Shown here: in pieces, positions 36,995 through 59,879 of the stretch | Layout of the letters: each line of letters starts with the position of its first letter | How positions within the stretch are numbered: the first letter of the stretch is position 1 | From: Paracoccaceae bacterium | GTDB lineage: Bacteria > Pseudomonadota > Alphaproteobacteria > Rhodobacterales > Rhodobacteraceae | Reading direction: 5' to 3' | Assembly: GCA_024227475.1 (NCBI GenBank) | Contig: JAAEUI010000335.1 | Span: 1 to 64,000 of the forward strand | DNA length: 64,000 bases | Position numbers and translations under genes: made by a program | The notes under the pieces: generated by a model | Databases searched by the model: none | What the model saw: only the letters and a program-made list of their open reading frames with translations | Told to the model about the DNA's origin: nothing

Positions 36995-39232
36995 TCATTC
37001 CCACTCCTGTACCTCAGCGACATTGCTGTTGTACCTAGCTGGTAGCGGTGGCCGCCAGGGTTCCAAAGCATCCTCAGCCTTTACGACTTTGCAGAGCAGA
37101 GCGCGCAGTTGGTAGGTGCCCATAGCCGGGCAATAGGGTGGATCGATGCTGGTCAAAGTGTTGGCGTTTGAACGCCAGTTGCCGTGATCAGGGCTCTCTT
37201 CCTCCTCTGGGAACCACCAGCCGTGCTGTACGTGGACAACGCGTTTGTCGATGCCGGCAAAGGTTTTGACCTTTTGGCAACATTTACCCCGGATGGTTTC
37301 AATGGACACCCAGTCTCCGTCTTTAACCCCAAGCTCGCCCGCCGTGTCTGGGTGTACTTCGCATGTTGGTTCGGGCCGGCCCTTGCGCAGGCGGGGAAGT
37401 TGGCGGAATTCCGAGTGAAAGAACATCGGGATCCGCGCGCCAGTGATCAGGACAAGCGGATATTCCTTTGCCAGTTCCGGTATGCTTACAGGGCTTTCCG
37501 GGGGCTCCTGATAGTCGGGAAGCGGATCGAGGCCATAGTCTTCGAGAAGCGTGGAATAGAGCTCGATTTTGCCGGTCGGAGTTTTAAATCCGTTCTCCTC
37601 ATATTTTTGCCATCTGAACTCCGGCTGGTAGAAGCCCATTTCCTTGAGATCGTCCCAGCCAAAATCAAGCGTTGCCCGCAACATGGTGTCATAGACTACC
37701 CGCGGGTCTTCCTGACCGTGCTCGGTTTCAAGCCGACGGCATATCTCGGTCATGATGTCCTCGTCCTGCATACATTCACCTATTTGAGCGGTTTTTTGCT
37801 GGGCAAGTATCACGTTCTGGCCATAAAACGGCACGGCGGGCATTGCATCGACCTCAGCCCAGGAGGCTGCCGGCAGGATCAGGTCGGCAAGCTCGGCCGT
37901 CGGTGTGAGGTAGAGATCAGCAACAACCAGATAGTCAAGTGCTGTCAGGGTCTCGTAAACGGCTTTCACGTCGCCGTAGGTCGACAAGGCGTTGTTGCCA
38001 AAGATTAACCCGGTGGTGACTGGATAGGGTTCATGAGAACGGATGGCCTTGAACACCGCGGGAATATGGGCTGAAGGGATTTGTGCGAGTTCGCCGCTCA
38101 GAACCTTGAAATCGTCAAATCCCAAGCGCTTTTTCTGCTGCTTTGTTGGCATTTTGTCAAACAGCTGCGGAAACGGAGGCAGCGGCATCATGCCAAAGGA
38201 CCAACTGCCGGGTTGATCTATGTTGCCGGTGATCGAGGGCAAACACAAAAGGGCGCGCACGGTCTGGAAACAGGCCGGGGTATGCTCAATGGCACAGCCC
38301 CACTCAAGCATCGATGGCTTGGTCGTTGCAAACATCCGTGCGGCCTGACGTATCAGCTCTGCTGGCACCCAGGTGATTGGGGCCGCCCACTCGGGGGTAA
38401 ACGATTTCACGCGTGCAGCCAGTTCGTCAAACCCATGGCACCATTTTGCGACGAATTCCTTGTCCTCCAGCCCCTCCCCGATAATGACGTTGAGCATGGC
38501 GAGCGCCAGCGCATCATCGGTGCCGGGCCTCAGCTGCAACCAGATATCGGCCTGCTTGGCCAGCAGAGTTTCGCGCGGGTCTACCACTATGGTTTTCGGA
38601 TTACCGACCAGTGCTTCCCTGACCCCAAAACCGAGTTCCCCGTCAGGGCCGGAGTAAAGCGGATTGTGGCCCCAGAAGGTGATCAGTTCGGGTTTTGCGT
38701 CTTCGGTGTAGTTACACAGCGGCAGCTGCCCCATGGTGATAATTGAGCCGTGAACGCGCGGGCGAAAGCACTGCGCTGTTCCGGGCTCGCACCAGTTTGG
38801 GGTGCCAATAGCATTGGCAAAGCGTGAGACATAGGGGAAGTGATGGCGACCGGTACCAGTACCAACCCAGATCGATTCCGCTCCGTTCTTTTTGGTGGCT
38901 TCCTTGATCTTGGCCACCATTTCATCATAGGCCTCATCCCATGAAATTCGCTCCCAGCGGCCTTCACCACGGGAACCGACACGGCGCATCGGGTATTTCA
39001 GCCGCCGCGGGTTATAGACTTGCTGAAGACTGGCGGCTCCCAGCGGGCAAAGCTTGCCCTTGTTCATCGGGTTATCCGGATCACCCTTGATCTGGGTAAT
39101 CGTATCGTTTTCGACCGTGATCAGGGCGCCGCAACCGCCATGACACATGCGACAGGCGCTTTTGTAGATGCGGACTTCGCTGTTAGTGCCTTCTTCAGGC
39201 TTTTCGATCTTGTTCATCTGCGACGGTCTCAT
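36995..39232 (-). CDS. Molybdopterin oxidoreductase with N-terminal [4Fe-4S] motif (DMSO-reductase family), no Tat leader
   Basis: CRMCHGGCGALI...GKLCPLG, ERISWDEAYDEM, GTAQCFRPR (candidate Cys Mo ligand), TPTAELADLILPAASW. Confidence 0.88.
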   Translation of the reverse strand: MRPSQMNKIEKPEEGTNSEVRIYKSACRMCHGGCGALITVENDTITQIKGDPDNPMNKGKLCPLGAASLQQVYNPRRLKYPMRRVGSRGEGRWERISWDEAYDEMVAKIKEATKKNGAESIWVGTGTGRHHFPYVSRFANAIGTPNWCEPGTAQCFRPRVHGSIITMGQLPLCNYTEDAKPELITFWGHNPLYSGPDGELGFGVREALVGNPKTIVVDPRETLLAKQADIWLQLRPGTDDALALAMLNVIIGEGLEDKEFVAKWCHGFDELAARVKSFTPEWAAPITWVPAELIRQAARMFATTKPSMLEWGCAIEHTPACFQTVRALLCLPSITGNIDQPGSWSFGMMPLPPFPQLFDKMPTKQQKKRLGFDDFKVLSGELAQIPSAHIPAVFKAIRSHEPYPVTTGLIFGNNALSTYGDVKAVYETLTALDYLVVADLYLTPTAELADLILPAASWAEVDAMPAVPFYGQNVILAQQKTAQIGECMQDEDIMTEICRRLETEHGQEDPRVVYDTMLRATLDFGWDDLKEMGFYQPEFRWQKYEENGFKTPTGKIELYSTLLEDYGLDPLPDYQEPPESPVSIPELAKEYPLVLITGARIPMFFHSEFRQLPRLRKGRPEPTCEVHPDTAGELGVKDGDWVSIETIRGKCCQKVKTFAGIDKRVVHVQHGWWFPEEEESPDHGNWRSNANTLTSIDPPYCPAMGTYQLRALLCKVVKAEDALEPWRPPLPARYNSNVAEVQEWE

Positions 39233-39234
39233 TC

Positions 39235-39603
39235 TCAGAAGATAATAGCAGCGATTTCCTTGTGGCGAACGGTAATTACTACAAAGAGCACCAGAATCGG
39301 CTGGCAGGGCTCAATCAGGCGCCAGATTTCCCGGTTCCAAAGCAGGGTTGCAAAAGCGACGAGCATGAACGCCAGCAACACAACCGCAGCCAATCCAGCG
39401 AAGGGCGGGATCAGAATTGTGAAAGCGCAAATGATCCATATACAGACCAGAAAGCCGGTCACAATTCCAGGGAGCGGATACCCCCAACCGCGAAACTCTT
39501 CTCTGACACGTTGGTAGTTCTTGACCTTCCTGTAGGCTGATCGCGCGAAAAAGAACGCCAGATAGAGCTGGCAGACCCATGATATCATTTCGATAACCGA
39601 CAT
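39235..39603 (-). CDS. DoxX/MauE-like small membrane protein
   Basis: Four predicted TM segments, DoxX-like YLAFFFARSAYRKVKN. Confidence 0.5.
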   Translation of the reverse strand: MSVIEMISWVCQLYLAFFFARSAYRKVKNYQRVREEFRGWGYPLPGIVTGFLVCIWIICAFTILIPPFAGLAAVVLLAFMLVAFATLLWNREIWRLIEPCQPILVLFVVITVRHKEIAAIIF

Positions 39604-39614
39604 CTGTTTCAAGA

Positions 39615-40502
39615 TTACCCGGCTTTGTGAGCTGCCCTGAGCGCGTCGATCAACTCGCTGTCGTTTCTCAGTTCCATACCCTGTTCGACCATCTGTTCCC
39701 ATACCTGCCTGGTGCCGCGACCCAGAACAGATTGGGCGCCAAAACTGTTGATCACTTCGATGCCATAGGAGGTGTCCTTGATGCGATTTTTACCGGTGAA
39801 CATGATCGGGTCATCAATGATGCCTTCGGCCATGTTTTTGGAATGAAGTTTTACATGCGGGCTGCCGGTTGCGCCGTTGGAAAACGCATCTGCAGCCACG
39901 CGCAAGTCGATGCCGGCCGCTTCGCAGGCCAGCAGGCCTTCGGCGGTCGCCGCCACCTGCAGTGCTCCCATGACGTTGTAGATTAGCTTGAAGGTGATGC
40001 CGGAGCCGACTGGACCAAAATGGATCACGGCGGCGCTTATTGCATCAAGCACCGGGCGCATCGCATCGACGTCTTCTTTTGCTCCGCCAGCAAATACTTT
40101 CAGTTTACCGGCATTGGCCAGATCCGGCCGCCCGGCCACCGGGCAATCAAGAAAATTCATGCCCTTGGCGCGCGCCAGCCCGTCAAGCTCGCGTATCCAC
40201 TCAAGCGAGGCTGTAGAAGCCTCAATCGCGTAGGCACCAGGCTTGAAATTGCCCTTAAGCGCACCGTTTTCCCCGTTCCAGCTGCCGCGCGATGCATCAT
40301 CATTAGTCAGGCAGGAAATCACAACCTCAGCGCCCTCTACCGCCTCTATCGGGGTTGCGGCGATCTTTGCGCCCGCGTCCTCCAGCGGTTTGGCTTTGGC
40401 GATTGTGCGATTGTAGGCGGTAACTTTATGACCGCCCTTGAGGTAATTCCTGATCATCGCCGAGCCCATTGCACCGGTGCCTAGGAATGCTATTTTTGCC
40501 AT
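39615..40502 (-). CDS. NAD(P)-dependent oxidoreductase, 3-hydroxyisobutyrate dehydrogenase family
   Basis: IAFLGTGAMGSAMIRNYLKGG, DCPVAGRPDLANAGKL. Confidence 0.9.
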   Translation of the reverse strand: MAKIAFLGTGAMGSAMIRNYLKGGHKVTAYNRTIAKAKPLEDAGAKIAATPIEAVEGAEVVISCLTNDDASRGSWNGENGALKGNFKPGAYAIEASTASLEWIRELDGLARAKGMNFLDCPVAGRPDLANAGKLKVFAGGAKEDVDAMRPVLDAISAAVIHFGPVGSGITFKLIYNVMGALQVAATAEGLLACEAAGIDLRVAADAFSNGATGSPHVKLHSKNMAEGIIDDPIMFTGKNRIKDTSYGIEVINSFGAQSVLGRGTRQVWEQMVEQGMELRNDSELIDALRAAHKAG

Positions 40503-40545: not shown

Positions 40546-41334
40546 TCAGTCCGGCGGTCGGGTGATGCACAGTCCTTCCAGCGCCAACCCGTAAGGCAGA
40601 AACTCGTTCATCCGCCTTCGCAGATCTTCGGTCAGAAGAATGCGCGAATAACGGCGGTTAAGCTCTGGCTGCTTCATGATTTCAGCAGCAAGTTCGCGCG
40701 CCCGAACAAGCAATTGGTCACGGGGCAGGATTTCGTTGATCAGCCCGTACTCAAGCGCCTGCTCGGCGCCCAATACCTGCCCCGTCAAAAGGAAATAGCG
40801 CCCCCGGTTCAGTCCCATGATCATGGGAAACACGATATGCACCCCGTCTCCGGGCACCAGCCCACCTGAAAAATGCGCTGAATCCTGAAACGAAGCGGTT
40901 TTGGTTGCCAGAACGATATCGCACATCACCGGCAGTTCGGCGTGCCGGGCTGCCGGGCCATTGACAGCCGCGATCATGGGAATATCGATCGCCAGCATGT
41001 TAGCGTGAAGCCGGTTGGCCTCCCAGCCCAGCTCACCCCAGCCGTCCGGGCTCATGTGGTGGTAAGCGCGGTTCGCTTGGGCATCGGGTACGGGGCCGGA
41101 AAATTCGTCACCGGTTCCGGTCATGATGACCACCTGATTGTCGCGATCCCGTCCGATATTGAGGAACGCTTCCTCGAGTTCGGCGTGAGCACGGCGGTTC
41201 CACCTGAGTGGGCCGCCATCGGTTACAAGCGTCATTTCCAGAACGCCGTTCTCGCGGCTGAAATTGATGGTTTCATACTTGTCCTGATAAGACTCAAGCC
41301 GGGTTCTCAGCTTTCTGATTTCATTGGCGTCCAT
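40546..41334 (-). CDS. Crotonase-superfamily retro-Claisenase, 6-oxocamphor hydrolase-like
   Basis: [98 protein letters not shown] align by recall with 6-oxocamphor hydrolase. Confidence 0.75.
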   Translation of the reverse strand: [262 protein letters not shown]

Positions 41335-41354: not shown

Positions 41355-43067
41355 TTATGTGGCATCTCTGGCATCCCGGATGTCTTCAAGCCCGTCAAAA
41401 AAGGTAACCGGCGGATAGGCCTCGGGGTCTGTCACCACATCCAGAAGCGTGGTTTCACCAGAAGCGAGCGCATCTTTCAGAGCGGGCAGATAGTCGCCGG
41501 CGTTTTCGATCCGCACGCCACGGCATCCCGAAGCTTCGGCGATTTTTGCATGATCCACTTCAGTGAAGAAACAGCAATCGCTGTGACGGCCAAATTTCAC
41601 GTCTTCGGCGTCTTTCTGATAGCCAAGAACGCCGTTGTTCAACACCGTCAACACCACCGGTGTTCCCATGCGACGCGCAGTTTCCAGCTCTGACCAGACA
41701 TGGGCAAACCCGCCATCCCCGACCATGCAGATCACCGGGCTGTCTGGTCTTGCGACCTTGGCACCGATTGCCATTGGCAAACCCCACCCAAGGCCAGCCA
41801 GTCCGCGGGGTGTGATGAAACGCATCCCGTGCTTGAGTGACGGTAAATAGCAGGCCGCCCACAGGGTCGAGTAACTGGCATCCGTCACCACAATCGTTTC
41901 CGGCGTCAGAACCCGTCGGATGTCAGCCGCCAGTCTTTCCGGGCGGATCGGGTGGGAGTTGGAATTCTCATAGGGCATTATGTCCGGCAGGTGCTTTTCC
42001 TTGGCCTCGGCAATACGCCTTTCGGTGTTCGGAATTGGAGAACGGCACCCTTTCAAGGCAGCGCACAGGGCCTGAAGCGTCAGCTTTGCATCGCCGTTCA
42101 GCCGAAGGGCCTCGTAGTTACGGCCGATTTCAAGGCTGTCGACATCGATATGGATAATCCGGGCGCTCTTTGGATAGATCGTCCAGCTGTCGGTTCCGTT
42201 CTGGTTGGTGCGCGACCCGACCAGCAGGATCACATCAGCCTCGTCAATCATCGGCTGCATGTAGCGCGTCGGCGAGAGTTTTCCCATTGCGTAGCCGACC
42301 ACGCCAAGGGAAAGGGGATGCCCTTCGTCAATTGCACCCTTGCCCATGACGGTTGTCATCACCGGAAGGTGGCATTCGCGCTGCAACTCGGCGACCTCCT
42401 CACAGGCGCCCGACAGATGAACACCACCACCGGCAACGACAAAGGGGTTTTGGGCCGATGCCAGCAAGTCGGCGGCCTCACTGATCCGCGCCGGATCTGC
42501 GGCAACGCGATCAAGCGGGAAATGGCCCAGGTTGGCGGTGCGCGGCTGAGGCAGTTCCACTTCCTCCAGCAGCAAATCGGCAGGCAGCATCAACACAACC
42601 GGGCCCGGTCGGCCGCTGGCAGCAGTAGCAAAGGCCATGTCGATGTAATCCTCGATCCGGCTTGCCTCAGTCACCCGCTTGATCGATTTGGCACAACCAT
42701 GAAACAGTGCCATATGATCGTATTCCTGAAACGCGTTCTTGTCGGTTTGCGGTCGGTTTACATCCTGCACCAATGCCACGATCGGAATAGAGGCCATCAA
42801 CGCCTCGGCCAGTCCCGGCACCAGCAGGGTTGCCGCCGGCCCGTTTTGGGCTGTGACCACGCCGACTTTGCCGGTGATGCGGGCATAGCAATCAGCCATA
42901 TAGGTTCCAGCGTTTTCCGTCCGGTACATGAAGTGCCTTATGTTGGCGTCTTCCGAAGCCAGCAGCAGTGCAGATGGCAAACACTGAGAGAACATTACCT
43001 CAACTCCATGACGTACCAATGATGCGGCCAATACTTGTGCTACTGTTTTGTTCTTACCGTCGGTCAT
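41355..43067 (-). CDS. Thiamine-pyrophosphate-dependent enzyme (acetolactate synthase-like large subunit)
   Basis: RTENAGTYMADCYARITGKVGVVTAQNGPAATLLVPGLAEA; ThDP motif GDGGFAHVWSELETARRMGTPVVLTVLNN. Confidence 0.9.
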   Translation of the reverse strand: MTDGKNKTVAQVLAASLVRHGVEVMFSQCLPSALLLASEDANIRHFMYRTENAGTYMADCYARITGKVGVVTAQNGPAATLLVPGLAEALMASIPIVALVQDVNRPQTDKNAFQEYDHMALFHGCAKSIKRVTEASRIEDYIDMAFATAASGRPGPVVLMLPADLLLEEVELPQPRTANLGHFPLDRVAADPARISEAADLLASAQNPFVVAGGGVHLSGACEEVAELQRECHLPVMTTVMGKGAIDEGHPLSLGVVGYAMGKLSPTRYMQPMIDEADVILLVGSRTNQNGTDSWTIYPKSARIIHIDVDSLEIGRNYEALRLNGDAKLTLQALCAALKGCRSPIPNTERRIAEAKEKHLPDIMPYENSNSHPIRPERLAADIRRVLTPETIVVTDASYSTLWAACYLPSLKHGMRFITPRGLAGLGWGLPMAIGAKVARPDSPVICMVGDGGFAHVWSELETARRMGTPVVLTVLNNGVLGYQKDAEDVKFGRHSDCCFFTEVDHAKIAEASGCRGVRIENAGDYLPALKDALASGETTLLDVVTDPEAYPPVTFFDGLEDIRDARDAT

Positions 43068-43115: not shown

Positions 43116-43967
43116 TCAGGGCGACCCTTTCAAAACAACTGTTTTCGCAACGACGCTTGCGCCTTTGATTGTTCTTTTGGTAGTTTTCCCGGAAAAATCG
43201 CTGTGTGATATTTCGATTTCACAGGCCCCCAGATCGGGTTCCAACCCGTCAATACGAAACTCGCCGAATGCATTGGTTTCAGTCGAAGCGATCTCTGTCC
43301 CACCAGATTTTAGCGAAACGCGGGCACCGGACAGACAGTCACTCACACCGTTTTTTTCGCCAAGAACCTCGCCAGCAACAAAGGCTTTGGTAAACAGATG
43401 CAGGTTCTTGTAATGAACCCGAGGTTTGGTGGCCAAGTCAGCCCTAAGCGGCTCTAGATCTTCCTGTGCAACCATCACTGCCATTTCGTCGTCTGACTTT
43501 TTTACGGCCCTAAGGGCGCCGGTCGGGCAGGACTGCACGCAGCGCGGCTCTTTCCAGCCTCGGTCAAGTAAGTGAGCATCGAACGTCCAGGCTTGCGGCA
43601 ATGACAGTTCATCATTCCACCAGATCGCGCCGTAAGGGCAACTTTCAACGATATCGCGACGACCTGCAGCCTTGTCCGGGTTGATGATCACAATCCCATC
43701 CGTCCGCTTTTCAACCGCCCCTCCACCTGCTTTGACACACGGGGCGTCATCGCAGTGGTTGCACATCGTTGGGACATAGGTGGTATCGACCATCGGGTGC
43801 TGGCCCCGCTCTTTGGTCAGGATGTTGATCCACTTGTGGCCATGAAGTGGTTGCGGGGCCGAGTAACCTTTGATGTCGTTACCGACATATTCATCCTTGG
43901 TGGCCAGAAAGCAGTTGTTGCAATTGTGGCATTCGGCGACGTCAACGATTAGGCTCCACTTGCTCAC
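43116..43967 (-). CDS. FeS subunit with C-terminal transthyretin/CNA-B-like domain, pyrogallol transhydroxylase TthS-like (copy 1)
   Basis: [111 protein letters not shown]. Confidence 0.88.
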
Positions 43968-46966
43968 GACGCCAACTCCCTAATCGCGAATTTCTCGACT
44001 TCAATCAGGCAGGAATTCGGGGCGGATGCAGTGGTCTTTTCAGTCATATGTCGCTTGGGTGTCAGGACGTTGACGCAGCCGCCGATATCAGGGGATTCTC
44101 CTGGCTCTCCAACCGGCTGATATTCGGCGGAGGATTCATAACTGTGAACCACGCCTTCCATCAGGCGTTCGGTCAGAACAGCCGCGCAGATGACAGAGCC
44201 GCGATCATTGAAAAGCTTGACCAGATCGTGCTGGTTGATACCGCGCTTTTTGGCCTCGACCGGGTTGAGTCGTGCGATCCAGTAGTAGTGGCCGTCGATC
44301 AGGACCCGGTGGTCCTGAATATCGTTGATCACAGAATCCTTGCCATCCCCAAGCGTATGAAAACTGAAGCGCGGATGTGGCGTGATCAATTGCAGAGGGT
44401 ATTTGTCCATCAGCTCCTTGGTCTGCCGTCCCTCCCAGGCCGGTATGTAGCGGTTTATCGGTGGGCGATCCGGGTCCTGCCCAAAGCGTTTCAGGCTGTT
44501 GGGTTCAAACTCGAACTTTCCAGATTGGGTCTGCAGGCCCTCGAGGTATTTCTCGCCGTATTCGGCTGGCAAGGGCGATGGTTCCGGTACATCCTTTTTG
44601 CGCCCCTCATAGAACCAGCGCATGCTCGTAGGGGGGCGGTTGGCCTCGTTTTCTTCCGGCGGAACCACATAATAGCCCTTTTTCATGAAGTTTTTCCATG
44701 AAATCACCTTGGAGACATCGGAGCTGAGGAATTGATCCCTGCACCATTGAATCTCGGTCTTGGCCTCGCCGAAATAGGCACTCAGCCCCATATGCTGGGA
44801 CAGTTCCAGAAATATCTGGAAGTCGGACTTGCTTTCGCCCAGGGGTTCGATGCACTTGTGCTGTAGCGTGATAACCCGATGGTTCAGCTGGTTATAGTTG
44901 TGATGTCCATAGCCACCGGACGAGGCCCATTCGCCGATATCTGTACGTTCAAAATTGGTACAGGCCGGCAGGATCAGATCGGCAAATTTCGCCTCTCCCT
45001 CATTCCAGATCGACTGGTTCAGCACGAATTCGAGGCCTTCCGTCTGATAGGCCTTGGCCAGACGGTTTGACTCCATCGTGGTGCCAAAATGCGAGCCACC
45101 GTATTTGTACATCATCCTGATCTTTGAATGCCCCGGTGCCGGATAGCCAAAGCGCATGAACTGGCCCTCAAGCGATTTCGGGTCGGTCGGATATCCGTGG
45201 GTTTCACCATCCAGCAAAGCCTCGGGAATACGCAGGCGCGGGATTTTCTGGGTCGAGGTATTCATGGAAATCATATGCGGCATACGCTGGTAGTTTTGCA
45301 CAGCATCGGCCGTACCTTCCATGTCGCCCGAAATTCCGCCATCGGCGTAGCCGGGGAAATAGAACTGCATGTCCAACGGTGCCCCGACCGTAAGGTTGCC
45401 GAAATTGACCCCAGGCTTGCCCAACCCCTGCATCGCCATCAGGCAAACCATGGCACGGGCCCACTGAATGCCGGTGGCTGAACGGTTTGCACCGCCAAAG
45501 CCAACGCCCTTGCCGCCGCAGGACAGATAAGTTTTCTTGTTCCCCCATTCCCGGGCCAGGGCCCGCGCAACATGTGATTTCACGCCGGTTTCGGGCTCCT
45601 GCCACTCAGGTGACTTCGGCTCACCGTCGTCGTCCCCCAGAACGTACGCCGCGTATTTATCAAAATCGGTGGTTCGGTTTTTGATGAATTCCTTGTCGTA
45701 AAGGCCCTCGGTGATCCAGACATAGGCGATGGCATGTGCCAGCGCCGGGCCGGTACCCGGTATGATCGGGATCCACTTGCCCCCGAGCCAGGTCGCCGTT
45801 TCGTTCCGGTAAGGATCGATATGAATGGATTTGATGCCAAGTTGCTTAGCCCATTGGCGGCGAATGGTTCCCTCAAAGGCGGCATAGGATCCGCAGGTTG
45901 TTTCGGGATCCGAGGCCCAGTACACGATTTGGTCGGCCTCTTTCAGGCAATCCTCGATCTGCCCGTAAGGTTCGGCCGTACCCATCCGCATGGTATAACC
46001 ATAGTGGTGCGACGCCCCCCAGAAGAACCCTTCCCAACTGTCCGGGTTCAGCACCATCTTGGTATAGCCGATGGCGTTCATGAAGCGGATGTTGGAGCTG
46101 AGGTAATACCCGATATTGCCCCAGGTGTGATGCGAGCTGTGACTATTAAGGATGGCGCCGTGCCCGTGATTCCGGTTTATCCGCTTAATTTCCCCCGCCG
46201 CAAGATCAAGGGCTTCACCCCAGGAAATACGTTCATATCCGGACTTGCCGCGGTTTTGCGGATTGCGCTCACCATTGGGATCAAAATCCACTCGCTTCAT
46301 TGGGTAAAGCAGCCGTTTGCTGGAATAGACCAGTGACTTTGAGGCCAACCCGTGCGGGCACAGAGTTGATTTGTGCGGCGGTGTGAACTCCCGCCCTCTT
46401 GCCCTGACGGTCCACGCCGGGGCGTCCTTTTCGTCAAAGTCCATCGGCGTTATGCGGACGATCTTTTCGCCCTTCACATAGACAAAAACCGGTCCGCCGT
46501 TGGTCTGGTTGACATAACGGGTTTCCCCCTTATCCACCGGGGTTCCCTGCGCCCAATGATGGGTCAGCATCGCGTTCATCAGGTCGGTGAAATGCAGGGA
46601 GTATTCATCATCACCCTGCACCTCGAACCCGAAATTCTTGGCAGCATTGATAACGGTTAGCGGGTCAAGAAACGGACGCAGGAAAGGATAGGCGAAATGA
46701 AACATGCCGGAACAGAGGTGAAGCAGCACCTGCACGCCGAGCCTGGGCGTTTTGAACTTGATCACAACGTCGGGATTGTCGTGAAGGCCGGCTCCGGACT
46801 TCAACCTGCCACTGTCAAACCGGTACCAGCGCGCCCGCGAACCATCCTTGGTTTGGATCTGCGCAACAAAATTCTTTGCATCCATCAGGTCCCGAAGTTT
46901 TGGCGACCGCCAGGCATAGAATGTCAAAGCCGGGGTCATACACCAAAGAAACAATGAAAAGGTCAT
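43964..46966 (-). CDS. Molybdopterin large subunit, pyrogallol-phloroglucinol transhydroxylase TthL-like, with extra N-terminal SCP2-like domain (copy 1)
   Basis: [98 protein letters not shown]. Confidence 0.9.
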
Positions 46967-47469: not shown

Positions 47470-48237
47470 CTATTCGCCAGCCCTGTCCACAGAAGCTTCA
47501 TTATCCAGCAGAGTTTCGCATTCTAAAGTCTTCTCCCGCAGAGCCGTTCCGGTTGCCTGATGATCCAAGAATGCAGCGTGAGTTCTGCTAAAAACCAACG
47601 TAACACTTCCCAGCACATCTCCATTCACAATTATTGGGCAGCCAATCCCGACTATGGTCTCCTGAAGCTCACCCTGGCTGACGCTAAATCCGCTGTCCGC
47701 AATCTGGTTCAGTTTGGTGAGTTCCTTCTTCCAGTTCTCCTTGCTTTTTTCACCCTCATAATACTGATCAAAGAGCCTGCGAACGCGCGCACGTGGTAAG
47801 AAAGCCAAAATTGCGGTCGAGGTAGCCCCGCGGAACCAGGGAAGTCGCCGACCCCGCAAAAATGTAAGATCAAGCATTTCATTCCCCCCGAAATGCTTGA
47901 TGTTGATCAAGTGTTCACCGTAAGCATTCGACAAAAGGGTAGTACATCCAAGAGTCCGGGAGAAACTTTCCATCATTGGTGAAAAGACCTTTGTAAGAGG
48001 ATCCGTTTCCGCAATCAGGGAATCAAGCTCTACGGCCCGGGCTCCTATCGCGTATTTTCCCCCGGGCATCCGGACAATAAGGCCTGCTTCGCATAATTCG
48101 CGAACGTAGCGATAAGTTGACGGTTGCGTATAACCAAAATGCGTTGCAAGGGCATCAACCGTCCAAATATGGCGATCAACGGAGAATGCATCGAGTATCG
48201 CCAACATTTTTGCAAGACTGTTGTTAGCATTTGCCAT
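47470..48237 (-). CDS. IclR family transcriptional regulator
   Basis: NSLAKMLAILDAFSVDRHIWTVDALATHFGYTQPSTYRYVRELCEAGLIVR wHTH plus IclR effector domain. Confidence 0.88.
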   Translation of the reverse strand: MANANNSLAKMLAILDAFSVDRHIWTVDALATHFGYTQPSTYRYVRELCEAGLIVRMPGGKYAIGARAVELDSLIAETDPLTKVFSPMMESFSRTLGCTTLLSNAYGEHLINIKHFGGNEMLDLTFLRGRRLPWFRGATSTAILAFLPRARVRRLFDQYYEGEKSKENWKKELTKLNQIADSGFSVSQGELQETIVGIGCPIIVNGDVLGSVTLVFSRTHAAFLDHQATGTALREKTLECETLLDNEASVDRAGE

Positions 48238-48346: not shown

Positions 48347-49660
48347 TTACATCGAATTTGGTAGCACCAATACAAGCCATGGCACTCCTACCAACAAAGC
48401 CAAGCGGAAAATATCCACAATCCAAAAGGGTGTTACGCCTCTAAATATGGTTGCTGTTGTGACGTCACCGACGACAGCTCGTAGCACAAAAACGTTCAAT
48501 CCGACCGGCGGCGTAATCAAGCTGATCTCGGTTACAACTACCACAATTATCCCAAACCAAACGGGATCGAACCCAAGACCTGTGACCACCGGAAAGAAAA
48601 TCGGAACCGTCAGAAGCAGCATCGACAGGCTCTCAAATACACATCCCAAAACTAGGTATATGGCCAGAATTATCAGGATTACCGTCATAGGCGCCAATCC
48701 TGCTCCGTCTACGGCAGAACGTAGCCCTTCCGGCAATCCCGCAATGTTGACAAAGTTTGAAAATACCCATGCGCCGATCAAAACCGTAAACAAAGACGCC
48801 GTGGTTTGAGCTGTTTCGACCAGCACCTGCATGACGCCGATAAAGCTGAGAGCCCGGCGGCTCAAGGCAATCAAAAAGGCACCGGCCGCCCCCATTCCAG
48901 CGGCTTCAGTTGGAGAGAAAGTCAGATTAAGTGGCCAAAAATCGAGAGCTCCGTACAAACCGCCGATCACAAGGAAAAACAGCAGCAACACCGCCCAAAC
49001 TCCTTTGAGGGCGACAACGCGTTCGCTCAATTTCGACCGCTCCCCAGCTGGCCCGGCATCGGGGTCACGCATAACGGTGTATTTTACTGCCAACATGTAA
49101 AGCAACACCCCAAGAAGCCCAGGAATGATGCCAGCAATGAACAATTTCCCGATGCTGGTTTCAGTCAACAAGCCGTAGATCACAAGTATAACTGACGGTG
49201 GTATCAAAATGCCCAGCGTGCCTCCGGCCGCGATCGAAGCAGTCGAAAGCCGGTCCGAGTATTTGTACTTGCGCATCTGTGGCATGGCGACTTTGGACAT
49301 CGTGGCCGCTGTTGCCAGTGACGAACCACAAATGGCTGAAAACCCGGCGCAAGCCAAAATAGTTGCCAGCGCCAAACCACCACGCATGTGCCCCAAGAAA
49401 GCATAGGATACCTGGTATAATTCACGCGACAACCCGCCCTTGTTCACAAAGAGACCCATAAGAATGAATAGCGGGACCACAGACAGACCATAGTCCTGCG
49501 CGGCATCGATAATCAGTCGTGCCACCATAGAAATGGAGCCCTTGAATCCTCTGATTTCAGTATAGCCAATAAACCCCACACCCCCCATTGCCAGGGCTAT
49601 CGGCATACGCATGAAAACAAGAAGAAGTACAACGGCAAGGCCCAAAATTGATTCAGTCAT
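48347..49660 (-). CDS. dctM: TRAP transporter large permease DctM
   Basis: VVPLFILMGLFVNKGGLS, ASIAAGGTLGILIPPSVILVIYGLLTETSIGKLFIAGIIPG. Confidence 0.93.
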   Translation of the reverse strand: MTESILGLAVVLLLVFMRMPIALAMGGVGFIGYTEIRGFKGSISMVARLIIDAAQDYGLSVVPLFILMGLFVNKGGLSRELYQVSYAFLGHMRGGLALATILACAGFSAICGSSLATAATMSKVAMPQMRKYKYSDRLSTASIAAGGTLGILIPPSVILVIYGLLTETSIGKLFIAGIIPGLLGVLLYMLAVKYTVMRDPDAGPAGERSKLSERVVALKGVWAVLLLFFLVIGGLYGALDFWPLNLTFSPTEAAGMGAAGAFLIALSRRALSFIGVMQVLVETAQTTASLFTVLIGAWVFSNFVNIAGLPEGLRSAVDGAGLAPMTVILIILAIYLVLGCVFESLSMLLLTVPIFFPVVTGLGFDPVWFGIIVVVVTEISLITPPVGLNVFVLRAVVGDVTTATIFRGVTPFWIVDIFRLALLVGVPWLVLVLPNSM

Positions 49661-50205
49661 TAGGTCGGCACCTTAGACGGGGCGAATATTCGTACCAACC
49701 CTCTGACGATCAAGACAAAGGCAGTAACAAAAGTGAAAAACGCTATAAACCATCCGATGATAAACTGTGGAAACCCAAGGTACTCAGTCACGTCTCCAAA
49801 ATCCCTGGCTCTCTCGGCCAGTTCCCAAACTCGCCTTGCCGGCCAAAGCAAGATTACTCCGGACAAAAGATCAATCACGATATCGCGCACCCGCGCAACT
49901 TTGCTCGAGAAAAGCGGATCCATCAGATCCACAACAATATGGCCCCCCTTCCATGTCACAATGGGCAAGGAGGAAAACACAATGATAGCCATGAAGAATC
50001 GGGTCAATTCAGTGGCCGACTCAATTGGGTTATTTGCGACACTGCGAAGAACCACATCCGCAAAAGTCATTATCATCAGAGCAAACAGGGTTAGTGCCGA
50101 CAACCAGGTCGGGGCCACCGCAATATAATGCCAAATACTTTGCTGTCGCAGTGAAATCTCTGCTTCACCAATCATCTCTTTGACAGCTTTGGTCTGCTCT
50201 GACAT
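49660..50205 (-). CDS. dctQ: TRAP transporter small permease DctQ
   Basis: Four-TM, overlaps dctM start. Confidence 0.85.
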   Translation of the reverse strand: MSEQTKAVKEMIGEAEISLRQQSIWHYIAVAPTWLSALTLFALMIMTFADVVLRSVANNPIESATELTRFFMAIIVFSSLPIVTWKGGHIVVDLMDPLFSSKVARVRDIVIDLLSGVILLWPARRVWELAERARDFGDVTEYLGFPQFIIGWFIAFFTFVTAFVLIVRGLVRIFAPSKVPT

Positions 50206-50270
50206 GCCGCAAGGGCCTTTCTTTTGCTGTACCTACCCAATGACCCAGTCTTCATCTGGCTTTATTAGAT

Positions 50271-50300
50271 CGGTAAGGCCCTCAAATTCGGGCCTTACCG
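50271..50300 (-). terminator. Intercistronic stem-loop between dctP and dctQ
   Basis: CGGTAAGGCCC-TCAAATTC-GGGCCTTACCG, perfect 11-bp stem, no U tract. Confidence 0.6.
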
Positions 50301-50330
50301 TAGTTTTGTTTGATTTTATGTTTGGGCAGC

Positions 50331-51347
50331 CTAGTTGCTCATCTGTTCAGCGATAAAGGCGCGCGCCGCTTCAGCGTCGATACCTTTATCCGACACTTCA
50401 CCCATCACCTTGGTGATGATTGCTCCAGACAGATCCTGCCACGTCGCTGCGTCCGCAGCCGAAGCTTCGGTGTAGGAGTTATCGGTAGTTGCCGCAAGTT
50501 TCTCACTTCCGATCGTGTCAATTGCATCCCAGACTCCTCCAGCCATTCCGGACAGGTTTTCGCCAAAGACGTCTGAAAGGGCGGCCTGATCAGCAGCCGA
50601 CAGCGAGTCAAATTTGTCGGAATTCATGATCACCGCAAATGAGCCACGATAAAAACCACCAGGAACCGCATAGGTATGTTTGGCTACTTCAAAAAGCTTG
50701 AAGGAAGCTTTTCCCTCCATTGGCATCATCACACCATCAGCGGCGTTCGAGGCCAGAGTTTCATAAACCTTTGGCGCAGGAACACGAATTCCGGTTGCGC
50801 CAAGTGCAGCACCCACGTCTCCGGACACGCCCCCACCCAGGCGGAGTTTCATTCCGGAAATATCACCAATTGACGAAATCTTTGTATTAGAGTGCAGTAC
50901 CCCAACCCCATGGGTCATCAAGCCAATAAGTTTGACGCCTTTGTGCTCGTTCAGCGAGGCAAAAAACTTCTCGTGCGCGCGCCAGTAGGCGACGGAGGCC
51001 TGTTGTGCGCTTCCTTCGTATCCGGGAAGTTCAATCATTTTTGTCGCTACAAACCGACCCGGTGTGTAGCCATGGAAAATCCATGTCAAATCCGCAGCGC
51101 CGTCAAGAACCAGGTCATACTGTGCGGGTGGGCTGGCAAGCCCATATTTTATTTCTCCGGTTACCCGGCCATCGGTTGCCGCTTCCATTTGCTTAATCAA
51201 CTCCGGCCACATCATCGCGTTCATTCCTTGCGACGGAGGTGCCCAGCTTGATATGGTCAACGTAACATCCGCCGCCATTGCTGTGACCGATGAACTAACA
51301 AGTAACGCCAGTGCTCCTGTCATTCTGATCAGCTTATTTTTTAACAT
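50331..51347 (-). CDS. dctP: TRAP transporter substrate-binding protein DctP
   Basis: Signal peptide MLKNKLIRMTGALALLVSSSVTAMAA and DctP body. Confidence 0.88.
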   Translation of the reverse strand: MLKNKLIRMTGALALLVSSSVTAMAADVTLTISSWAPPSQGMNAMMWPELIKQMEAATDGRVTGEIKYGLASPPAQYDLVLDGAADLTWIFHGYTPGRFVATKMIELPGYEGSAQQASVAYWRAHEKFFASLNEHKGVKLIGLMTHGVGVLHSNTKISSIGDISGMKLRLGGGVSGDVGAALGATGIRVPAPKVYETLASNAADGVMMPMEGKASFKLFEVAKHTYAVPGGFYRGSFAVIMNSDKFDSLSAADQAALSDVFGENLSGMAGGVWDAIDTIGSEKLAATTDNSYTEASAADAATWQDLSGAIITKVMGEVSDKGIDAEAARAFIAEQMSN

Positions 51348-51922
51348 ATTGTCTTCTCCCTTTGGTTTTGCCCCACTCCCACGGGACGAAATACAGCGGC
51401 AATCAGGTGCCGCCGTATCGTAGCACACCCTTCAGGGCGCCTACTATATGTTACTTTTTAGCTTATTATGATAATAAGTCAACTTTGCTCACATACAGAT
51501 TCTCCAGGGCATTTTGCACCACTATTGACTCCAAAAGGATTTCTGGTTCCGCAATAAACCCTTCGGTTAGCTTGCAAAAAGGGGTCAACTGTTGAACAAA
51601 TGAACCATCCCCTCCCTTTAGCGCGGCATCAAACTAATAACAGACTACGATCGCCTCCGAAGGGGGGCGGAGAAACCCGTGGTCCGTTTTCATAGCGTCA
51701 ATAATTCTTTTTTTTGCAAATTACAATAATACGGCACTGTCCAATTAGGTAGAATCAATTCCCTCCGCTGTATGAAGCAAGCTCCAACCAGATTCTGATT
51801 GGCCAGTGTCAATGCCCTTCAATCCTCACAGAAACCGCACCACTCGGCAAGTACGGCGGCGCGGTTCAGCTTGAAATTCAACGTCTCGCCAGTAGGCTGA
51901 CGCTACAATGTAGCAATTAGAG

Positions 51923-52080: not shown

Positions 52081-52926
52081 TCACAGTTTATGAATTCCGA
52101 CATCCATACTTTCACTCCCAATCTCAATTGGGAGTGAAAGTGTAACGGCGCCCTGGTGCCGCAGTTCCAACCTGCAGGTTCCCAGATTTGGTTCCAGACC
52201 AGAGATTCTGAAATCTCCAAAGTCATCACTTTGCGCCTGCGCAACTATTTCGTCGCCTCTAATTACGATCGCACTGGCGTCTTTAAGGCATTCGGTCACG
52301 CCTTTGAATTCCTTGCGCACCGATCCACTAATAAAGCAAGTCGTGACCTTTTCGTAATTGCGGTAGTAAACGCGTGCCTGCGTATTTTTTTCCTCCAGCA
52401 GCCTAGTCAGGTTTTCCGCCGTTGCCCGTTCAACCATTTGTTCGTCTGTACATTTGACAGCGATCAACGCGCCGGTCGGGCAGGCTTCAACGCTGTTGGG
52501 TTTCTCGTATCCGCGGTCCAACAGATGTGCATCGAATATCCAGGTCTGGGGTGTCTCACTCTCTTCATTCCAGATGATTGCGCCGTAAGGGCAAGCCGCG
52601 ACAAGGTCCTCTTTGCCCTTTGCCCTTGCTGGGTCAAAAATGACGATGCCATCATCCCGTTTGGTGATCACGCCATCCTTGTCGGCTTTCATGCAAGGTG
52701 CGTTGTCGCAATGGTTGCACATTACCGGAACATAATACGCCTCCACGTTCGGAAACTGCCCCCGCTCGTGGTATTCGATATCCAGAGCGGATTTTCCTTG
52801 TTTCGGATGCGAGCTGAAGTAACCGGGAAGGTCATTTCCGGAATACTCGTCCTTGCAGGCAAGGGCGCAATTGTAGCATCCGCAGCACTGGGCGACATCA
52901 ACTATCAGGTTCCATTTGGCATTCAT
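52081..52926 (-). CDS. FeS subunit with C-terminal transthyretin-like domain, TthS-like (copy 2)
   Basis: [90 protein letters not shown]-terminal MDVGIHKL. Confidence 0.88.
52108..52141. repeat. Perfect 15-bp inverted repeat inside 3' end of FeS gene
   Basis: ACTTTCACTCCCAAT-CTCA-ATTGGGAGTGAAAGT. Confidence 0.9.
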
Positions 52927-54071
52927 TGGAGCAGTTCCGTCCTTCCATCCCATAGTTCAACTTCAATCAGGCATGAATTAGGGGCCGAGGCGGTAGTTTT
53001 CTCGGTTTGAAAGCGCTTGTTGGTCAATGTGTTAATGCACCCGCCCCGATCGACAGATTCACCTGGAACACCCAAAGGTTCGTAGATTGCACTGGATTCA
53101 TAGGAATGGACAACACCTGGCATCAGGCGCTCAGTTAAATCGGCAGCACAGACAACCGCGCCCCGATCATTGTGCAGTTTAATCAGGTCATCCTGTTTGA
53201 TGCCGCGTTTCTTGGCGTCCTTGCGGTTGATCCTAGCGGTCCAGTAATACCAGTCGCCGATTTTGACGCGATGCCCGGGGATATCGTTGATGAAACTGCC
53301 CTTACCGTCTGCATGTGTGTGGAATGAGTATCGTGGATGCGGTGATATCAACTGAAGAGGATACTTTTTGTAAAGCTGGCTGTGACGACCCTCCCATGAC
53401 GGAATGTACTTGTTCAATGGCGGGCGTTCGGGATCCTGACCAAACCGCTTCAGGCTCGAGGATTCGAACTCGATTTTACCACTTTGGGTTTGCAGGCCGT
53501 GCCCGAATTTTTCTGTGTACTCGGCAGGCAAAGGATGCGGTTCAGGCACGTCTTTTTTGCGACCCTCAGCAAACCACTTGAACGATGTAGGAGGACGCAG
53601 ATGTTCCTTTTCAGCGTCCACCACAAAATACCCCTTCTTTAGAAATTCTTTCCACCCGATCTTATCTGAAATGTCAGAAGCTTCGAATATGAACCGGCAC
53701 CAGTCCAACTCGGTATGGCCCTCGCTGAAATAGGCCGCGAGCCCAAGGCGCTTGGAAATATCAAGGAATATCTGAAAGTCGGATTTTGACTCGCCCAAAG
53801 GCTCGATCGCTTTGTGCTGCATCGCGATGACACGGTGATTGAGCTGTCCCTCGTTATGCAGCGAATACCCCGAAGCATTGGCCCATTCTCCTATGTCCCA
53901 ACGTTCAAAATTCGTGCAGGCCGGGAGGATGACATCAGCAAACTTGGCTTCGCCTTCGTTCCAGACGGACTGGTTTACAACGAACTCCAGATCCGAAGAG
54001 CGGTAAGCCTTTGCCAGCCGGTTAGATTCCATGCTTGTTCCAAAATGGGATCCGCCAAATTTGTACATCAT
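52923..54071 (-). CDS. TthL-like Mo large subunit copy 2, C-terminal part (downstream of apparent frameshift)
   Basis: Continues co-linear with copy 1 from [23 protein letters not shown] to the C-terminus. Confidence 0.8.
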
Positions 54072-55882
54072 CCGAATCGGTGAATGACCCGGAGCAGGAT
54101 AGCCAAATTTCGCGAATTGCCGTTCCAGCCCACGCGGATCGGTTGCGTAACCTTCCGTTTACCATCCAAAATGGCCTCGGGGATGCGCAGGCGTGGAATT
54201 CTCTGCCCCGTAGGATTCATGCTCGGTAATTGCGCCATCCGCTGATAAAGCTGGATAGCCGATCCGGTGTTTTCAACATCCCCGGAAAACCCACCCTCGG
54301 CGTAGCCCGGAAAATAGAAACTGTGGTCAACTGGGGCGCCGTATTGCAGGTTGCCGAAATTGATGCCCGGTTTACCAAGCCCCTGCATCGCCATTAGGTA
54401 AACCATTGCGCGTGCCCATTGTATTCCGGTGGCCGAGCGGTTAGCACCACCAAAGGTCGTGCCCTTGCCGCCAGCCCCCAGGTAGGTTCGTCGGGTTCCC
54501 CACTTTCGCGCCAAAGCACGAACAACCGCAGCGGAAACACCGGTTTCTTCTTCCTGCCATTCAGGGGTTTTCGGAGGGGTTCCGTCTTCACCAAGTAAAT
54601 GCGCGTGCCACTTGTCAAATCCAGTCGTGCGTTGGGCAACGTATTCTTTGTCATAGAGCCCTTCTGTAGCCCATACATACATGATCGCCTGAGCCAGAGC
54701 CGGACTGGTACCCGGAACTACCGGAATCCATTTTCCACCGATGAATGTCGCTGTGTGGTTCATGTATGGATCGATGTGTATCATCTCGATCCCCAGCTCT
54801 TGAGCCCACTGGCGCCGAATGGTCCCTTCAAATGCACCGTAGGTTCCCTGGGTGCTGTCAGGATCGCTTGACCAGAATACGATTAGATCGGCGTTCTGCA
54901 GGCAATCTTCGACCTGCCCGTAGGGTTCAGCCCCGCCATTTCGCATGGAATAGCCGTAGTGGTGCATGGCACCCCAATACCAGCCCTCCCAACTGTCCGG
55001 ATTAATCACCATCTTGGTGTGGCCGATGGCGTTAGTGAATTTAAAAAGCGCGCAAAGGTAATAACCGATATTGCCCCAGATTTGGTGCGACGAGTGCGAG
55101 CTCAACATTGCACCCTGACCATGTTCCTTTTTGACCCGTTTGATTTCACCAGCGACGGTGTCAAGCGCCTCGTCCCAACTGACGCGCTCATAACTCGATA
55201 TGCCCCGCATATGCGGATTTCGTTTGCCGTTAGCGTCAAAATCCACCCGCTTCATCGGGTACAAAAGCCGGTCATCGGAATAGACTGTCGATTTTACTGC
55301 CTGCGCGTGGGGACTGAGTGTGGTCCGCTCGGGAGGCGAAAACGTTTGGCCCCGGGCTTCGATTTTCCACGAACCACGTCTCGCTTCTGCTTTTTCCAGT
55401 GAAATCGGCGTGACCCGCAGGATTTTTTCATCCTTTACGTATACGAATACCGGACCTCCGTTTGTGTTGTTCACATAACGGGTTTCGCCATGGCCAACAT
55501 CAACACCGTATTTCCAGCCGGCTGAAAAAATCAGGCTCATCAGTTCGGTGAACCAGATTGTCACCTCGTCGTCCCCTTCCATATCCATGCGAAAGTTCTT
55601 GATCGCGTGGATGAACTTGAAATGGTCAAATGGGGGTTTCAGCAGTTTTTTTGCCGTGACAGCATCCTTAAAAACCAGTGTCACGTCAGGCATCGCGTGG
55701 CACCCGGCACGGTTTCGGGTCTTACCATCCCGAAAAATGTAATGACGACCGGTTTGGGTGTTCTTTAGCTTGATCTGAACGATTGCGTCACGCTCGCGCA
55801 TTTTATTGCGTACCGAGCCATAGGCCACTGACGCTGCCCGAAAGGCGACCCCAAGTGACACCAGGTATGTCTCAAGAAGCAT
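54068..55882 (-). CDS. TthL-like Mo large subunit copy 2, N-terminal part with SCP2-like domain; frame lost near 54158
   Basis: [68 protein letters not shown]; diverges abruptly after [12 protein letters not shown]. Confidence 0.85.
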
Positions 55883-55984
55883 TGGCGGCCCTCTCAGGGT
55901 GGTATGGTTCTCCCATCAACGAAAGCGGACGAATTCGACGACGGTCGATTTGAAAAGCAACCTGAGGCGCGTGGTTCCGCAGAT

Positions 55985-56974
55985 TCATTCAATGGCCACC
56001 ATCTGTTCGATAGCACCCATGACCGAGTTACCGTCATAATCCAGCAATTCGATCCGGACCGTGTCTCCTGGCTTCATGAATTCCAGTCTGGCTTGGCCTG
56101 TCGTGATCGCCTCCAACGCCCGGTATTCCCCGATACAACCAACACCGATGGACCAATCCTCATCGGCCTCCTCATTGGATACTGTGCCAAGGCCGATAAT
56201 TGTACCTGCCTCGAAATTGCGGGTTTGTGCCGCGTGGGCGATGGCGTCGCCATAATGAAACGGGCTGTCGATGCCGGTTTCGATATTACCGATCTGTTCG
56301 CCACGAAAGTGCACGTGCATCTTGCCGGACACCATTTTGCCATCCCAAAGGCCACCCAGCTCGTCCGGGGTTACAGCGACGGGGCCAAGATAGCTCTCTG
56401 GTTTTGCGGTCAGAAAACCAAAGGAGCGCTTCAGCTCTGGTGCCACAATACGGCGAAGAGACGTGTCTTGCAGCAGGCAGAAAAGTCGGATGTATTCGGC
56501 TGCCTCATCCGCTGCCACACTGCGCGGCACATCCCCGGTAATCGCCGCGATCTCAGCTTCGAAGTCGATCAAATCTTCGGCTTTCTGCCCCTTGATTGAT
56601 TGATTCCAGGCGCCAAAGCCGTGTGAAATACCCTGATAAATCAATGGAGTATCCAAAATATCATCTGGTAACTTATCGCCGCGAGCCTCGCGGTTGCGGC
56701 GAATATGACTGACGTAGCAGGCCCCATCAAGATACTGGAAAGCCCGAGGCAATGGCGCTGCCAGTTCACTCATGTTCAGTGAAAAGCTGTTATTTGCTGT
56801 GCCGTCGTTCAAGGCGGCATATAGGGCTTGGAGTTCGGGTGCCCTGGCGTCCCAGTCATCCAGCAGCGATTGCATTGTGGGTGTTACACCATTGGCCTTG
56901 ACAGCGTTTCTCATATCCCTTGAAACTACAATCAATTCGCCGTCACGACCGGACTTCAGAGACGCCAGTTTCAT
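55985..56974 (-). CDS. Fumarylacetoacetate hydrolase (FAH) family protein
   Basis: DFEAEIAAITGDVPR, GFLTAKPESYLGPVAVTPDELG, GDAIAHAAQ, GTIIGLGTVSNEE. Confidence 0.82.
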   Translation of the reverse strand: MKLASLKSGRDGELIVVSRDMRNAVKANGVTPTMQSLLDDWDARAPELQALYAALNDGTANNSFSLNMSELAAPLPRAFQYLDGACYVSHIRRNREARGDKLPDDILDTPLIYQGISHGFGAWNQSIKGQKAEDLIDFEAEIAAITGDVPRSVAADEAAEYIRLFCLLQDTSLRRIVAPELKRSFGFLTAKPESYLGPVAVTPDELGGLWDGKMVSGKMHVHFRGEQIGNIETGIDSPFHYGDAIAHAAQTRNFEAGTIIGLGTVSNEEADEDWSIGVGCIGEYRALEAITTGQARLEFMKPGDTVRIELLDYDGNSVMGAIEQMVAIE

Positions 56975-57090
56975 CCAAACCTCCTTTGGGTTTTGATTTT
57001 GACTCGAAAAATGGAAGACCTCATAACGCCGGGCACCACTCGGTGGGGTGACGCGTCGACCCTTACCTTGCCGGGTTTCCCAGCCAAGCT

Positions 57091-57633
57091 TTAGTCGTTC
57101 TTAAACTCTTCGGCATGTGTCCAGGCTGCGTGTCTTGGCGCTCTTTTTGTAACGTCAAATTCGTTGAGCATGTCCCATTTCACATCTGCCATACGCCCGA
57201 TGAGAGCCTCCGCGTCCGGATCCCAGGTGGCGACTTCCAGCCGGTGCCCGCTTGGATCATAGACATAGATCGAATGAAAAAGTGAATGGTTGGTGACCCC
57301 CACCACATCTAGCCCCTTACTTTCCAGATGCTCTTTGTATTCCATCAGAGTGTCGCGATCCTTGACCTGAAACGCGATATGCTGCACCCAATCAGGAGTG
57401 TTTGGGTCACGCCCCATTTTTGGCTTGGTCGGCAGTTCGAAAAAGGCCAGGATATTGCCGCCGCCAGCGTCCAGGAATACGTGCATGTAGGGGTCTGGCT
57501 CGTGTGTCGATGGGACCCGGTCCTCAGCCATGGCCCCAATGAAGTCCATGTTGAGCATCTCCTTATACCATTCGACAGTCTCCTTGGCGTTATTGCAGCG
57601 ATATGCCACGTGATGCATTTTCTCAAGTTTCAT
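57091..57633 (-). CDS. VOC (glyoxalase/dioxygenase) family protein
   Basis: MHHVAYRCNNAKETVEWYKEMLNMDFIGAM, HIAFQVKDRDTLMEYKEHLESKGLDVVGVTNHSLFHSIYVYDPSGHRLEVA. Confidence 0.9.
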   Translation of the reverse strand: MKLEKMHHVAYRCNNAKETVEWYKEMLNMDFIGAMAEDRVPSTHEPDPYMHVFLDAGGGNILAFFELPTKPKMGRDPNTPDWVQHIAFQVKDRDTLMEYKEHLESKGLDVVGVTNHSLFHSIYVYDPSGHRLEVATWDPDAEALIGRMADVKWDMLNEFDVTKRAPRHAAWTHAEEFKND

Positions 57634-57738
57634 ACTTTCCTCCCATGTGTTCAATCGACAGAATACTCTTTTTCAAAACCCGTTAGCGTCACCCCAAAAG
57701 GTGACGGCTTCTCAACGAGACTAGCGGCCATCCCATCC

Positions 57739-59878: not shown

Positions 59879-59879
59879 G

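Follow-up and report, generated by a model that had tools for sequence, protein, structure and literature searches.

A predicted beta-dicarbonyl C-C hydrolase of the OCH/ABDH family in an operon with molybdenum and ThDP enzymes from a Paracoccaceae bacterium

The window, a stretch of 64,000 nucleotides from a Paracoccaceae bacterium, encodes a further member of the known family that comprises 6-oxocamphor hydrolase (OCH) and Anabaena ABDH, and the gene is located in an operon for molybdenum enzymes, a ThDP enzyme and a HIBADH-family dehydrogenase. We have high confidence in the family assignment and in the chemistry class, the hydrolysis of a C-C bond in a beta-dicarbonyl compound. The family, the catalytic residues, the predicted fold, the operon and a conserved ThDP-OCH-HIBADH triad are directly supported. 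We lean slightly towards the view that the OCH-like protein is one of two ring- or chain-opening enzymes in an oxygen-independent breakdown of polyhydroxybenzenes.

The initial annotation had placed a beta-diketone hydrolase gene at positions 40546-41334; these coordinates were borne out exactly, and the strand, which had been left unstated, is the minus strand, the plus-strand frame over the same interval being interrupted by stops. The peptides that had been quoted for their likeness to OCH are present in the reading frame, and a phmmer search against the PDB recovered OCH (1o8u, E 6.2e-72; 1szo, 1.5e-70) and Anabaena ABDH (2j5g, 5e-66), with enoyl-CoA hydratases as the next family at about 2.2e-22 or worse. 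Set against these enoyl-CoA hydratase scores, the similarity to OCH and ABDH is far above chance. For the residue mapping, positions were numbered as in the 1o8u chain and in 1szo, the structure of the H122A mutant. Trp40, His122, His145, Asp154 and Glu244 of OCH, all claimed earlier to be retained, were identical in the alignment, as was His45; in sequence order, Trp40, His45, His122, His145, Asp154 and Glu244 correspond to Trp45, His50, His131, His154, Asp163 and Glu253 in the window protein, and we take their roles in OCH to be those assigned from the published structures. The His/Asp dyad, the loss of which had been named as evidence against the assignment, is present in the sequence alignment. 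His50, His131, His154 and Asp163 were invariant in an alignment of 38 family sequences, and Glu253 was conserved in more than 90% of them. Five ordinary crotonase paralogs from the same genome lack His131, His154, Asp163 and Glu253, and have Gly at position 131. The AlphaFold (AF2) model of the protein had a pLDDT of 89.7, and the top 12 PDB matches to this model in Foldseek were all OCH or ABDH structures (TM 0.87-0.93, E 1e-26 to 1e-28), with crotonases at E 1e-16.

The profile libraries assign the protein to crotonase/ECH alone (PF00378), which is the automated label that had been anticipated. That it is a genuine acyl-CoA enzyme, a hydratase or isomerase as this label implies, is very improbable: the PF00378 match and the annotation of its relatives as enoyl-CoA hydratases agree with such a function, but the GGG-type oxyanion/CoA motif of enoyl-CoA hydratases is ARH in the window protein, the OCH residues are intact, and the operon contains no gene for a CoA ligase or thiolase. 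The best NCBIfam model, PRK09245, scored far under its cut-off, as did all other NCBIfam ECH models listed. An ordinary ECH annotation was rejected on the basis of these cut-offs and of the absence of the OCH residues from the crotonases of the same genome. Based on the PDB relatives, the catalytic residues and the Foldseek matches, the best call is a predicted CoA-independent hydrolysis of a C-C bond in a beta-dicarbonyl. The earlier proposal of a CoA-independent cyclic-1,3-diketone hydrolase thus holds for the OCH/ABDH type and for a predicted C-C hydrolase rather than a hydratase; its cyclic substrate is not established, since a linear beta-dicarbonyl delivered by the neighboring ThDP enzyme fits equally well.

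The operon is more informative than any other line of evidence, and the initial annotation did not mention it. Its genes and those upstream of it are as follows:

48347-51428, minus strand: TRAP transporter (DctM 48347-49660, DctQ 49660-50205, DctP 50331-51428)
47470-48237, minus strand: IclR-family regulator, which precedes the operon in L017 and L021 as well
43964-46966, minus strand: AhtL1, Mo-bisPGD large subunit, 1000 aa, pyrogallol-hydroxytransferase-like
43116-43967, minus strand: AhtS1, [4Fe-4S] small subunit of the pyrogallol-hydroxytransferase-like enzyme
41355-43067, minus strand: ThDP enzyme of 570 aa that scores above the cut-off of the NCBIfam subfamily PRK06112
40546-41334, minus strand: OCH/ABDH-type beta-diketone hydrolase, 262 aa, ATG start
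39615-40502, minus strand: beta-hydroxyacid dehydrogenase of the HIBADH family, 295 aa, which completes the triad
39235-39702, minus strand: DoxX/MauE-like membrane protein, listed start probably too early
36995-39232, minus strand: second Mo/W-bisPGD oxidoreductase, most similar among solved structures to acetylene hydratase (2e7z, E 1e-96)

The genes from AhtL1 to the second Mo enzyme are co-oriented in the order given, and the OCH-like gene is the fourth of a tight operon with overlaps or gaps of 20-48 bp (a 4-bp overlap of AhtL1 and AhtS1, then gaps of 48 bp from AhtS1 to the ThDP gene, 20 bp from there to the OCH-like gene, and 43 bp to the HIBADH gene). Near-identical operons were recovered from three other MAGs (L016, L017, L021), and an assembly artefact is therefore unlikely. 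L017 shares with the window the pairing of the second Mo/W enzyme with DoxX.

When the genome collection was scanned, at least 80 OCH-like loci were recovered, and a tree was built on 91 sequences, leaving out L022, which carries the triad. The window protein was placed within a clade with support values of 100/98; this triad clade consists of every tree member with a cognate ThDP gene beside the OCH gene, plus L020, which is without it. Among the matches listed, the cognate ThDP gene adjoins the OCH gene at 8 of the 9 clade loci and at none of the 70 others (Fisher p 3e-10), the HIBADH gene is present at 7 of the 9 and again at none of the 70, and a Mo hydroxylase is encoded within 7 kb at 10 of the 18 loci of the triad clade and its sister clade taken together as compared to 1 of 61 elsewhere (p 3e-7), where the p-values describe clustering and not independent events because the loci are related to one another. 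By host titles, which are not always reliable for MAGs, the triad is found in Alphaproteobacteria, Betaproteobacteria and Acidobacteria. It survives rearrangement, with a divergent ThDP gene in L019 and an ABC transporter inserted in L022 and L024. Four of the OCH-like loci (L027, L080, L085, L090) come from MAGs titled Bordetella parapertussis or Klebsiella pneumoniae, which is doubtful for environmental bins, and OCH-like genes in tandem duplicate were observed at L009/L015 (G027:C96) and L038. Close homologues were found neither in 32 congeners nor in the other genomes sampled from the class, order and phylum, and none beyond the window was found in approximately 800 phylum- and order-level genomes; the best homologue within the class sample was 49% identical. 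Given these absences from the congeners and the wider genomes sampled, the operon looks acquired.

Among the loci listed, AhtLS genes precede the triad in four cases only, namely the window and the loci L016, L017 and L021. Genes for an IorAB-type (xanthine-oxidase-type) Mo enzyme flank the triad in place of AhtLS in L022 and L024, and the triad need thus not be polyphenol-specific. In the sister clade (L026, L028 and the plasmids L099-L101), IorAB or XDH-type Mo hydroxylases are encoded near an OCH-like gene that is without a ThDP partner. The three plasmids, from Burkholderiales and Pseudonocardia, carry MFS genes along with the XDH-type genes. These loci without AhtLS (L022, L024, L026, L028, L099-L101) favor a reading in which the same chemistry serves another pathway, with the beta-dicarbonyl derived from an N-heteroaromatic or other Mo-hydroxylated ring and AhtLS recruited secondarily. 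We consider this rather unlikely for the window, where AhtLS is located immediately upstream, as in the three MAGs, and belongs to a family that includes resorcinol hydroxylase and whose characterised members act on phenols (PMC10100899).

AhtL1 is 51% identical (948 bits) to the Pelobacter pyrogallol hydroxytransferase, its closest relative among solved structures; it retains the Mo ligand Ser175 as well as His144, Asp174 and Tyr404, and the FeS partner subunit is present. At the positions that we take to form the AthL pocket, Arg153 is replaced by Tyr and Trp354 by Phe, likewise in most relatives examined, and for this reason the substrate may not be pyrogallol. The N-terminal 148 residues of AhtL1 (46522-46966, minus strand) form an extension that is also seen in plasmid AhtL proteins and is absent from the Pelobacter enzyme; an SCP2-like identity was suspected by eye, but Pfam gave no match and the AF2 model was of low quality (pLDDT 53), so that the extension is left unassigned. 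A second AhtLS-like set on the minus strand (52081-57654), with FAH and glyoxalase/VOC genes, resembles cassettes carried on plasmids in Burkholderia, Paraburkholderia and Ensifer (L103, L104, L106). Its large subunit, AhtL2, is 63% identical to AhtL1 and is split into two frames that overlap at an ATGA, 54068-55882 and 52923-54071; the split is probably a frameshift or an assembly error.

The similarity of AhtL1 to a pyrogallol-phloroglucinol hydroxytransferase, its closest solved structure, would also fit a hydrolase that opens the ring of (dihydro)phloroglucinol formed by AhtLS acting as a transhydroxylase, the more so as dihydrophloroglucinol is a cyclic 1,3-diketone. This is improbable: Arg153 and Trp354 of the pocket are changed, the ThDP enzyme would be left without a role, and genes for a DPGC-like Trp-x-Tyr cyclase, a 3HCDH and a BKACE are grouped about 18-25 kb from the OCH-like gene. 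The BKACE gene is at 58946-59944 in the window, and the LIV transporter, 3HCDH and PF04199 cyclase genes are at L102:2576-4505, which is contig 64575-66504 and outside the window. The cyclase carries Trp35-Pro-Tyr37 and is DPGC-like by motif and family, the motif residues of DPGC being Trp20 and Tyr22 (PMC10470551). The published DPGC/TfD/TAL route uses enzymes of the cyclase, 3HCDH and BKACE families, and we regard the three genes on the contig as a DPGC-like set that, together with the LIV transporter, probably serves phloroglucinol degradation. With such a set on the same contig, dihydrophloroglucinol is less likely as the substrate of the OCH-like enzyme. 6-Oxocamphor is improbable as its natural substrate, since the probable pocket-side loop differs from that of OCH and no camphor genes were evident among the neighboring genes scanned. 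This loop is 4 residues longer than in OCH and contains an FSGP motif, which with its variants (FTGP/YSGP/YAGP) marks the triad clade and the sister clade and is also found in the nearby L030 and L031; the other family members sampled differ from the FSGP type.

In the ThDP enzyme, the catalytic Glu (YRTENAG) and the GDG...N cofactor motif are present; neither is diagnostic, as they are common to much of the superfamily. Its closest solved relative is BbmA, and we propose by analogy that it may be an alpha-diketone lyase or hydrolase. Related genes in rhizobia and Azospirillum (60-64% identical) adjoin, in the rhizobia, genes for sorbitol/shikimate dehydrogenase, GMC oxidoreductase and SDR proteins, which is consistent with cyclic (polyol-derived) ketone substrates. 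The reverse order of action, in which the OCH-like enzyme attacks a cyclic beta-diketone first and the ThDP enzyme is then a decarboxylase or carboligase on the open-chain 2-oxo product, is a minority reading; it draws on the cyclic diketones used by the characterised OCH and ABDH (titles of 1szo and 2j5s) and on the placement of PRK06112 within the acetolactate-synthase superfamily.

For the pathway that we favor, with the ThDP enzyme acting before the OCH-like enzyme, we infer the substrates, the order of the steps and the oxidation step. Among dearomatised polyhydroxybenzenes, the substrate would most plausibly be 2-hydroxy-1,4-benzoquinone, a specific choice that we make tentatively. In the trione tautomer of this compound, a 1,2-dione adjoins a 1,3-dione, and hydrolytic ThDP-dependent cleavage of an alpha-diketone is the chemistry of cyclohexane-1,2-dione hydrolase. 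The AhtL1/AhtS1 enzyme would hydroxylate a resorcinol-type phenol with a hydroxyl group taken from water, and the product would be oxidised to a hydroxybenzoquinone, a step for which the second Mo enzyme and DoxX are possible candidates; counted against this is the resemblance of the second Mo enzyme to acetylene hydratase, a non-redox enzyme. The ThDP enzyme would then hydrolytically cleave the C1-C2 alpha-diketone of the trione tautomer to a linear dicarbonyl acid, and the OCH-like enzyme would perform a retro-Claisen hydrolysis of the C3-C4 beta-dicarbonyl, yielding a C4 dicarboxylate (or semialdehyde) and a C2 unit. HIBADH would adjust the (semi)aldehydes, as would the aldehyde dehydrogenase encoded in the L017 operon, the presence of which fits an aldehyde product. 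Darley et al. in 2007 reportedly found acetate and malate from hydroxybenzoquinone breakdown in Azoarcus anaerobius, with which the proposed C4 and C2 products would agree. In favor of the pathway, the genome contains narG, and the PF04444 hydroxyquinol-dioxygenase N domain was not found in the bin, which is 79% complete and in which absences are accordingly weak; counted against the pathway is that no hydroxyhydroquinone dehydrogenase was assigned.

The ThDP-OCH-HIBADH module with Mo enzymes appears undescribed. It is possible, though doubtful, that Mo hydroxylation, ThDP-dependent alpha-diketone cleavage and crotonase-fold hydrolysis make up a ring-cleavage route, undescribed and independent of oxygen, that acts on hydroxybenzoquinone or a close relative of it in at least three bacterial lineages. 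If so, this would be an alternative to the bqd genes that have reportedly been proposed in Azoarcus and Thauera, and it would suggest a hydrolytic, oxygen- and CoA-free opening of polyphenol rings in a nitrate-reductase-bearing bacterium. To our knowledge, two OCH-type proteins have been characterised and the wider role of these enzymes is little understood; the link of an OCH clade to Mo hydroxylases and a conserved ThDP partner suggests a testable physiological role for the family, and points out genes that annotation pipelines label enoyl-CoA hydratase and acetolactate synthase.

Compared to Rhodococcus 6-oxocamphor hydrolase (1o8u, 1szo), the window protein has the same fold, 49% identity and the same catalytic set, but is encoded in a Mo/ThDP operon. 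With Anabaena ABDH (2j5g, 2j5s), it shares the fold, 45% identity, the His residues and the Asp, whereas the OCH Trp40 position is Phe in ABDH and Trp45 in the window protein; we know of no operon of this kind for ABDH. The ThDP enzyme belongs to the same fold family as cyclohexane-1,2-dione hydrolase (2pgn, 4d5g), and cleavage of a cyclic alpha-diketone is proposed for it too, but the relationship is distant (E about 1e-44). AhtLS has the Ser Mo ligand, His144, Asp174, Tyr404 and the two-subunit layout in common with pyrogallol-phloroglucinol transhydroxylase and resorcinol hydroxylase (AthLS, RhLS), and differs in the two pocket replacements, the N-terminal extension and the downstream module. 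DPGC is a Mn-dependent enzyme of the cyclase family (PF04199), unrelated to the crotonase fold of the OCH-like protein (PF00378). The phloroglucinol pathway of Clostridium scatologenes, in which DPGC, TfD and TAL take part, opens the ring by a hydrolytic retro-Claisen reaction without oxygen (PMC10470551), a type of opening that we propose for the window operon as well and for which a set similar to the clostridial one is present elsewhere on this contig.
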